From positions 2,801,001 to 2,865,000 of the forward strand of contig NZ_CP011028.1 of the NCBI RefSeq assembly GCF_002221525.1: a stretch of DNA of 64,000 nucleotides, given 5' to 3'. The stretch comes from Pseudoalteromonas espejiana DSM 9414. GTDB taxonomy: Bacteria > Pseudomonadota > Gammaproteobacteria > Enterobacterales > Alteromonadaceae. How positions within the stretch are numbered: position 1 is the first letter of the stretch; the number at the start of each line of letters is the position of its first letter. The position numbers and the translations under genes are program-made. This document shows positions 37,024 through 38,787 of the stretch, one piece after another. Under the pieces are notes generated by a model, which was not told the DNA's origin, searched no databases, and saw only the letters and a list, made by a program, of their open reading frames with translations.

Positions 37024-37542
37024 CTACCTTTTATGTCGCCACTGATCTTTATGATGTTCTCTTTTATTAAAGGGCATTGCATAAGGTGCAAACTCTTTCA
37101 TAACACGTCTGTATACATCGCGTTTAAACGATACAACCTGTCTAACTGGGTACCAGTAACTCACCCAGCGCCAATCATCAAATTCAGGATGATGGGTTTT
37201 TAATAAGTTTACATCTTCGTCTTTACAGCGCAGCTTTAATAAAAACCATTTTTGTTTTTGCCCAATGCACACCGGACTAGAGTCGCGGCGAATTAAGCGT
37301 TTGGGTAATTTATAGCGTAACCAATGTTTTGAGCTTGCGACTATTTCTACATCTTCTGGTCGCAAACCTACTTCTTCGTGTAATTCACGGTACATGGTTT
37401 GTTCTGGTGTTTCACCATCATCAACACCGCCTTGGGGAAATTGCCAAGAATGCTGACCATAACGTCTAGCCCAAAAAACCTGTCCCTGATTATTGCAAAT
37501 TACAATTCCGACATTGGCACGAAAACCTTCGGCATCAATCAC
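37024..37542 (-). CDS. rppH: RNA pyrophosphohydrolase
   Basis: A Nudix hydrolase that removes pyrophosphate from 5'-triphosphate mRNA and so starts decay. GTG start at 37542 with GAGG 8 bases upstream; the N-terminus [15 protein letters not shown] is the expected one. The Nudix box [20 protein letters not shown] is at about residues 39-58. Length 172 residues. Confidence 0.95.
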
Positions 37543-38115
37543 CTTAGTGCCTCATTTGTAAGTCGATTTTTAATGATTGTTCCACATTAGCTGCAATTCG
37601 GCAAACACTATTATCCCCAACTAGGGGCAAGTTTAATATTTATACTGTGCATAACTACTTAATATCAACACGTTAAATTAATGCTTTTGAACTTAAGGTA
37701 TAAAATAACCCATAATTTACGCAACTTTTAATAAAAAAAGCAAAGCTATGTCTTGATTATTATGTTTAGTGCCATTTACTCACAGCTTGTGTATAACTTT
37801 TAGTAAACAAGGCTATTTTGCAAACAAGTCCACAATAGCAGATCTAAAACTTCGCTTTCTCCACAGATTCTGTGGATAAACATGTTTATATAGTTGTATT
37901 TATCCCAAATAGTATTTGTTAACTTAATTATAGCTGAACACTAAATTCAAAAATATCAATGCGAGTCAGTCACTTACGCCTTATTCGCTGCTTTTTCAGT
38001 TGTGTAAAATTGCACCGCACACACCAAGTACAAAAAACAACCAAAAGCAAAGATATCCACGTTCGTGCGATTTTGCTATCATGGCATTGTTAATAATTCA
38101 AGGTAAATCAGTAGC
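37543..38115. other. 573-bp rppH-mutH gap, DARS2-like DnaA-box cluster
   Basis: Non-coding and AT-rich. Three matches to TGTGNATAA, the reverse of the DnaA box TTATNCACA, lie in the same orientation: 37646-37654 (N=C), 37788-37796 (N=T) and 37871-37879 (N=G, the canonical box). A one-mismatch box TTCTCCACA at 37857-37865 faces the last one head-to-head, five bases apart. An exact IHF consensus (WATCAANNNNTTR) is at 37663-37675. E. coli carries its DnaA-reactivating site DARS2 near mutH, with DnaA boxes and IHF, so this is probably the equivalent. The gap also holds the divergent rppH and mutH promoters. Confidence 0.65.
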
Positions 38116-38787
38116 GTGCGACCAACAAAACCCTATTCAATTAATGACTTAATGCAGCGTGTAAATGCTATTGCTGGCTTAACACTTGGCCAATTAGCAT
38201 CGCAATATAACTTTAAAACTCCCGATGACCTATTACGTGAAAAAGGCTGGACGGGGCAATTAATTGAATACGTGTTAGGCGCTACGGCAGGCTCAAAACC
38301 CCTTCCCGACTTTGAAGATTTAGGCATTGAGCTTAAAACCTTGCCTATTTCCTATAAAGGCAAACCACTAGAAACCACGTTTGTATCGGTAACACCCCTT
38401 ATAAATGTAACGGGTATGACCTGGCATACGAGTGCAGTGCGTAAAAAGCTAAATCATGTTTTATGGTTACCCATACTAAGTGAGCGAGATATAGCCCCGT
38501 TTGACAGAACTATAGGTAGCGGCTTTTTGTGGCAACCAACACCTGAGCAAGATGCGCTATTACAGCGTGACTGGGAAGAACAAATGGAGTTAATTGCACT
38601 TGGGCGAGTAGATGAGATATCTGGTCACTTAGGGGATGCAATTCAAATAAGGCCAAAAGCAGCTAACAGCAAAGTGGTTACTGATGCTATTGGCCCAAAT
38701 GGTCAAATTATAAAAACCCTACCCCGTGGTTTTTATTTAAAAACCAGTTTTACGGGTGAGATTTTAAAGCAGCAGTTTCAGCTTTAA
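38116..38787 (+). CDS. mutH: DNA mismatch repair endonuclease MutH
   Basis: Nicks the unmethylated strand at hemimethylated GATC during mismatch repair. GTG start. The catalytic DEK motif is visible as Asp, Glu and Lys in DFEDLGIELKTLP near residues 64-73. Length 223 residues, as in the family. Its presence implies Dam methylation and a MutS/MutL system elsewhere. It is divergent from rppH across the DnaA-box gap. Confidence 0.95.
   Translation: MRPTKPYSINDLMQRVNAIAGLTLGQLASQYNFKTPDDLLREKGWTGQLIEYVLGATAGSKPLPDFEDLGIELKTLPISYKGKPLETTFVSVTPLINVTGMTWHTSAVRKKLNHVLWLPILSERDIAPFDRTIGSGFLWQPTPEQDALLQRDWEEQMELIALGRVDEISGHLGDAIQIRPKAANSKVVTDAIGPNGQIIKTLPRGFYLKTSFTGEILKQQFQL

Follow-up and report, generated by a model that had tools for sequence, protein, structure and literature searches.

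The gap between rppH and mutH in this genome very probably holds the Pseudoalteromonas orthologue of DARS2, a reading drawn from sequence comparison. We base this identity on conserved synteny, a core whose geometry is exactly that of the E. coli element, an IHF position conserved relative to that core, a related core upstream of uvrB, and the presence of the trans-acting proteins. The sites themselves, their order, spacing and conservation, together with the synteny and the protein complement, are established here. Counting against the DARS2 reading, the window's copies of box III and of the IHF site are both degenerate, at two mismatches each. The spacing from IHF to Fis also falls ~15 bp short of the E. 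coli value, and in E. coli shifts of 5 bp lowered activity (PMC4245941).

The window, by which we mean the whole 64-kb stretch analysed, spans positions 2801001-2865000 of contig C1 (3.72 Mb) in a genome of 4.50 Mb and two contigs. Its genes run thyA, lgt, an additional gene, ptsP, rppH and, past the gap, mutH (names by curated models); leaving aside the additional gene, the thyA-lgt-ptsP-rppH-mutH arrangement is syntenic with E. coli K-12. The gap is divergent, with rppH on the minus and mutH on the plus strand. The MutH protein shares 99% identity with its counterpart in Pseudoalteromonas sp. P1-25, which places the genome in this genus. DnaA, Fis, IhfA, IhfB and Hda are all encoded in the genome with scores above the curated cut-offs, which supplies the trans factors expected of a DARS2 (DnaA, IHF and Fis). 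The features discussed below are as follows, with offsets counted from the start of the core at 0.

37024-37542, minus strand: rppH, flanking gene (curated model, score above cut-off)
37646..37654, plus strand: first DnaA box of the first-pass annotation, in a variable insertion and judged outside the element
37663..37675, plus strand: exact IHF consensus of the first-pass annotation, in the same insertion and judged outside the element
37776..37796, no strand assigned: upstream head-to-head pair TTACTCACA-GCT-TGTGTATAA at -81/-69, containing the box at 37788
37823..37834, plus strand: AACAA(A/G)TCCACA, conserved, with a weak DnaA box at -31
37857..37865, plus strand: DnaA box I of the DARS2 core, TTCTCCACA, one mismatch to TTWTNCACA
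37871..37879, minus strand: DnaA box II of the core, head-to-head with box I across 5 bp; the plus strand reads TGTGGATAA
37883..37891, minus strand: DnaA box III of the core, TGTTTATAT, two mismatches, 3 bp past box II
37964..37976, plus strand: candidate IHF-binding site corresponding to IBS2 of E. coli, AGTCAGTCACTTA, with two mismatches
38028..38042, plus strand: candidate Fis-binding site in place of FBS2-3, GTACAAAAAACAACC, one mismatch, graded moderate
38053..38061, plus strand: box-V-like weak DnaA site, ATATCCACG, two mismatches, at +196 and 10 bp past CAACCA
38116-38787, plus strand: mutH, flanking gene (curated model, score above cut-off)

Core and conserved register

The core occupies 37857-37891, between rppH and mutH, and reads TTCTCCACA-GATTC-TGTGGATAA-ACA-TGTTTATAT, a three-box arrangement with the fixed spacing 9-5-9-3-9 of the E. 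coli core. Mismatches in boxes I, II and III number 1, 0 and 2 in the window vs 1, 1 and 1 in E. coli. Across 47 distinct Pseudoalteromonas gaps box I is TTCTCCACA in 35 and TTTTCCACA in 12, and the box III offset has a mean of 2.0 mismatches, with TGTT.ATA conserved and the 3-bp spacing equal to that in E. coli. These gaps, and the 45 used below, were anchored on the motif of boxes I and II, and the invariance of box II within them is thus partly built in. Conservation in close relatives, on which the first-pass annotation had staked its reading, holds for boxes I and II, found with a looser pattern upstream of mutH in 25/25 same-genus genomes (own included); the box at 37646 is rarely shared. 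The motif of boxes I and II was likewise matched in 55/55 Pseudoalteromonas gaps, same-genome duplicates included. Among 119 rppH-mutH gaps scanned, again with duplicates, 107 have at least one core-type element at ≤5 mismatches, in some of them a second, mutH-proximal element, and 12 have none. Left out of this gap survey were L022, L035 and L098 (3 of 123 sequences), which gave no rppH match; the genome of L022, G009, was treated separately. Many loci represent one genome entered twice and the species are related, so that such counts are not independent events.

The core starts 157 bp from the start of rppH in E. coli and 167-171 bp from it in 28/28 Vibrionaceae gaps. In the 55 Pseudoalteromonas gaps this distance is 158-188 bp in 36 and 261-492 bp in the 19 that carry extra DNA on the left, the window among the latter at 314 bp, with 259 bp from core to mutH. 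Four species show extra DNA on the other side: in L060, L063, L068 and G009 (L136) the core lies 2,423, 1,704, 903 and 3,835 bp before mutH, and it is still 167-168 bp from rppH despite ~0.6 to 3.6 kb of additional sequence. These four keep the IHF position with 2, 0, 0 and 2 mismatches, respectively, and all but G009 retain the Fis match. A CACTGTATAnAnATnCGGTTTTT stretch between the IHF and Fis positions, which resembles half of a LexA box, is common to L060, L063, L068 and L136, and none was seen in the window.

Around the core, the Pseudoalteromonas sites stand in an almost rigid register, assessed over 45 distinct gaps for register counts and over 47 for the offset scan and for pairing; identical gaps were merged, and the 45-gap set omits L052, L054, L056, L065, L071, L072, L043, L044, L075 and L022. 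To the right of the core, the IHF offset +107 is the best plus-strand position of 360 (-130 to +229), with a mean of 1.66 mismatches and a z of -4.7. The site there has 0, 1, 2 or 3 mismatches in 5, 19, 13 and 8 of the 45 gaps, shifts to +106 in L020 and L021, and is the best IHF match within +60..+149 in 37/45, another position being better in 8/45. By sequence, then, a candidate IHF site lies at a set distance right of the core, and its copy in the window, at two mismatches, is a weak one; a second IHF site resembling IBS1 could not be made out clearly in the window gap. A weaker signal appears in Vibrionaceae, where the best plus-strand IHF offset is +119 with a mean of 2.71 mismatches. A Fis match with ≤1 mismatch stands at +171/+172 in 40/45 gaps, yet it ranks only fourth of the 360 offsets and is absent in G009. 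Beyond it, the box-V-like ATATCCACG is variable within the genus, and the arrangement CAACCA-10 bp-TATCCAC in the right arm is common to the window and E. coli.

On the left of the core, TGTGNATAA stands at exactly -69 in 41/45 gaps (mean of 0.3 mismatches over the 47) and the full head-to-head pair is present in 38/45. Closer in, AACAA(A/G)TCCACA is found at -34 in 44/45 gaps; a TTATnAACA-like box stands at -32 both in E. coli and in Vibrionaceae, with a mean of 1.14 mismatches over 28 Vibrionaceae gaps, and the E. coli counterpart of the weak left box is TTATAAACA. Most of the aligned Vibrionaceae sequences also carry a GGTCAAAGATCnACCA-like block, which is not kept in Pseudoalteromonas.

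Between rppH and the core, at ~37600-37770, lie ~150 bp of extra DNA that is variable in sequence and differs in length among close relatives. The idea that this insertion is a repeated mobile piece was rejected, as a genome search at E ≤ 0.001 gave no further copy of 37600-37775. TGTGNATAA occurs further left than -150 in only 2/45 gaps (the window at -211 and L003 at -203), and L009 and L048 each have one left copy near -141. An exact IHF site at -194 is found in 0/44 other gaps and is absent even from the nearest relative, L003. Exact left IHF sites elsewhere occur in 5/44 other gaps, at -161 in L010, L012, L013 and L050 and three times in L051, and, given the -161 position shared by four relatives, some members of the genus may use a left IHF site. 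We rejected the box at 37646 and the exact IHF match at 37663 as parts of the element because relatives do not share the surrounding DNA in that form. The exact consensus at 37663 is probably a decoy, and the degenerate site at conserved distance appears to be the better candidate.

The first-pass annotation, which had placed a probable DARS2 counterpart at 37646..37879, was thus right about the kind of element, as synteny, core geometry and IHF position indicate, and partly wrong about its anatomy. Its interval holds boxes I and II of the core and misses the part of the conserved element that continues right to ~38061; of its three boxes, 37871 belongs to the core, 37788 to the conserved flank, and 37646 to the variable insertion, as does the IHF site that it had counted as part of the element.

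DARS elements in other genomes

The first-pass annotation had proposed a comparison with E. coli DARS2 and other gaps beside mutH; in that comparison the 9-5-9-3-9 geometry is shared with E. coli. We located the E. coli DARS2 core at L001 5136-5170 as TTATTCACC-TTTTC-TGTGGATAG-AGT-TGTGAAGAA, which agrees with primers deleting boxes I-III in the available part of PMC4585315 and with the DARS2 map position of 64 min given in that of PMC5295017. In E. coli AGTCAATGCATTA begins at +109, 3 bp from TAAAATATTCATT; taking these two as IBS1-2 fits the text of PMC4245941 in the portion available, and the exact assignment is our own. Set against the E. coli element as described in the accessible text of PMC4245941 and PMC8682772, Pseudoalteromonas has the same gap, the same core geometry and the same order of core, candidate IHF site, candidate Fis site and box-V-like site, with a core-to-IHF distance of 107 bp vs 109 bp. 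The window differs in having a right arm of 259 bp to mutH vs 527 bp, one recognisable IHF site vs two, a weaker box III, an added conserved pair at -81/-69, and ~147 bp extra toward rppH.

Conservation of IBS1-2 and FBS2-3 wherever the core has a similar genomic position is noted in the portion of PMC4245941 available, and DARS-like sequences in many proteobacterial species in that of PMC10380432. The first-pass annotation had also argued that a conserved location here would show this replication-timing control to be older than the enterobacteria, a novelty that is forestalled by the DARS2 homologues listed for Vibrio cholerae and Shewanella denitrificans in the legend to Figure 8 of PMC8682772, from which Pseudoalteromonas is absent. 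These represent the same element beyond the enterobacteria, known to us by that legend mention alone (PMC8682772). A literature search, whose coverage excluded most subscription papers, found no published DARS2 in Pseudoalteromonas. The present site is very probably a further example of DARS2, whose existence outside the enterobacteria was already known.

A related core lies upstream of uvrB. The pattern TTNTNCACN6TGTGNATAN, sought in 41 genomes, was present in 37 and matched 93 places vs 8 for a reversed-pattern control. After omission of one place in G014, the reverse reading of a palindrome, the remaining 92 divide into 31 upstream of mutH, another 31 upstream of uvrB (a single site per genome for either gene, ≤6 kb) and 30 elsewhere; the uvrB site of G031 is in the opposite orientation, and the mutH site of G034 is probably the second, mutH-proximal element. 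Among same-genus genomes, own included, the core pattern is upstream of uvrB in 22/25. The DARS1 counterpart of this genome is at C1:2422741-2422762 (L124, L151 near 4741), 1,815 bp upstream of uvrB, and reads TTATCCACG-GTTTC-TGTGGATAA-CTC-TGTTTATGA. The E. coli DARS1 core lies 419 bp upstream of uvrB, and a MATE-family transporter gene stands between core and uvrB in our genome.

Expressed as a fraction of the chromosome, the distance from oriC is 0.237 for DARS2 here vs 0.206 in E. coli, and 0.349 for DARS1 here vs 0.329; our own values are counted from the contig start, with oriC assumed near dnaA (C1:112-1551), and those for E. coli use what we take to be its oriC coordinate. GC skew changes sign between 1.7 and 1.9 Mb (19 sampled stretches plus the window). 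Both elements are on the same arm in our genome vs opposite arms in E. coli (PMC4585315). Relocating DARS2 to the other arm, with its distance unchanged, is reported to give wild-type behaviour (PMC5010248). E. coli DARS1 maps to 17.5 min in the available text of PMC5295017 and has few accessory regions in that of PMC8682772.

The gap lacks a core in G026, G027, G030, G036, G037 and G040, and G038 has weak matches only; in G031 there was no core in the 4.8 kb examined, where rppH was not found. Fis scored above the cut-off in 10 of 11 genomes, comprising these eight coreless or weak cases and three with a core (G029, G033, G039), the exception being the coreless G026. Loss of the DARS2 core is not dependent on loss of Fis, since Fis is present in most coreless genomes. 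The gap measures only 65-99 bp and has no core in L105, L118, L119 and L122 (Idiomarina, Pseudidiomarina) and in L078 (Agaribacter), and in these lineages DARS2 seems to have been lost or moved.

Competing explanations and proposed mechanism

The components claimed by the first-pass annotation are all present: three TGTGNATAA boxes in one orientation (37646, 37788 and 37871, all on the plus strand), the head-to-head near-box TTCTCCACA at 37857, and the exact IHF consensus TATCAACACGTTA at 37663. Its assertion that the cluster exceeds chance also stands, in that three of five randomly placed positions would fall within 234 bp with P ~4e-4, and the rate of 193 sites per 4.50 Mb in this genome gives a Poisson P of ~1.7e-7 for at least 3 in one given 234 bp, both values being uncorrected for the number of windows covered by a scan. 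Box number alone is ordinary, at 5 in the 64-kb window, and 47/100 shuffles reach at least that many. IHF consensus sites are mildly enriched (9 in the window vs 4.95 expected, with 5/100 shuffles reaching 9), and the match at 37663 taken alone is not convincing.

Three exact boxes and a near-box within 234 bp might be expected of a passive DnaA-titration cluster, in which high-affinity boxes soak up DnaA with no nucleotide exchange, and DnaA titration on the E. coli chromosome is reported in the available text of PMC12371093. Such a cluster needs no fixed head-to-head spacing, no third box at 3 bp and no IHF site fixed at +107, all of which are conserved, and we consider this explanation improbable. 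Somewhat less credit still attaches to descent of the window core from a second, mutH-proximal box cluster of E. coli. Another core-like box set lies ~266-355 bp to the right of the core in E. coli (L001 5452-5486) and several relatives, often in the form TTATCCnan-N5-TGTGGATAA-N3-TGTGnnnnn. The E. coli copy is 211 bp before mutH, close to the 259 bp seen here, and two such elements coexist in several relatives, as this descent would allow; the rppH distance, the right-hand IHF site, CAACCA-10 bp-TATCCAC and the left box at -31/-32 instead fit the first core.

It is highly unlikely that the gap is simply a DnaA- and IHF-regulated promoter region of rppH or mutH. The gap is indeed divergent and the pair at -81/-69 lies on the rppH side, but in the four species with extra DNA before mutH the distance from rppH to the core is still 167-168 bp, the same core recurs at uvrB, and a scan by consensus alone found one promoter-like site in the gap vs a shuffle mean of 2.9. 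Control of rppH only is less well excluded than the wider promoter reading. That the inverted pair acts as a hairpin or as a transcription terminator, and not as a protein-binding site, can be dismissed almost entirely: boxes I and II do form 8/9 Watson-Crick pairs in 47/47 motif-anchored Pseudoalteromonas gaps, yet no terminator-like site was found in 37500-38200, and Vibrionaceae keep the box letters while the pairs formed number 6/9 in 18 gaps, 7/9 in nine gaps and 8/9 in a single gap out of 28. On these points hairpin, promoter and pure titration were each rejected as the main reading.

For the preferred DARS2 reading, binding and nucleotide exchange are all inferred from what is known in E. 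coli. The head-to-head pair of boxes I and II would be occupied by ADP-DnaA, with box III adjacent, and IHF bound ~107 bp right of the core start would bend the DNA and so bring Fis at ~+171 into contact with the DnaA complex. DnaA would next lose its ADP, and the resulting apo-DnaA would load ATP for a further round of initiation at oriC. At +196, the weak site may be where ATP-DnaA binds and displaces Fis, like box V of E. coli. As a compact natural DARS2, the element allows conserved parts to be separated from variable ones, and it corrects the choice of mutation targets, which should include the candidate IHF site at 37964 rather than the consensus at 37663. The pairing of DARS1 and DARS2, with their neighbours, spacing and distances from oriC, is now extended to a marine genus that carries two replicons.

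A third core near pta

A third DARS-like core is present in this genome at C1:1593198-1593219 (L145 near 3198; L172) and reads TTACCCACA-ATTTC-TGTGGATAA-CTA-TGGGAATTG, with a weak third box (TGGGAATTG, three mismatches). Of 30 pta loci, 16 have a core shortly downstream of the gene and in opposed orientation (within 700 bp, ≤6 mismatches). Among the 22 same-genus loci it is present in 13, comprising G011, G017 and the 11 nearest, our own being one of these, and missing from 9; among the 8 more distant loci it is present in 3 (G029, G032 and G035) and missing from 5. In E. coli the 16 kb surrounding pta contain no such core. To our knowledge, a 'DARS3' in E. coli has only been speculated upon so far, and the pta core is put forward here as a new lead only, suggested by sequence. 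An enlarged system, comprising DARS1 at uvrB, DARS2 with its added pair at -81/-69, and a third core toward the terminus in part of the genus as a DARS3 candidate, is conceivable and on balance doubtful; if it proved true, the pta core would be an actual candidate for 'DARS3'. In G003 the match lies 192 bp beyond pta by coordinates, and in G021, where pta was not found and the neighbouring gene is only a remnant, the core is kept. An alignment of 12 relatives sets the core and TGGGAAT...GTATAA apart from flanks that vary.
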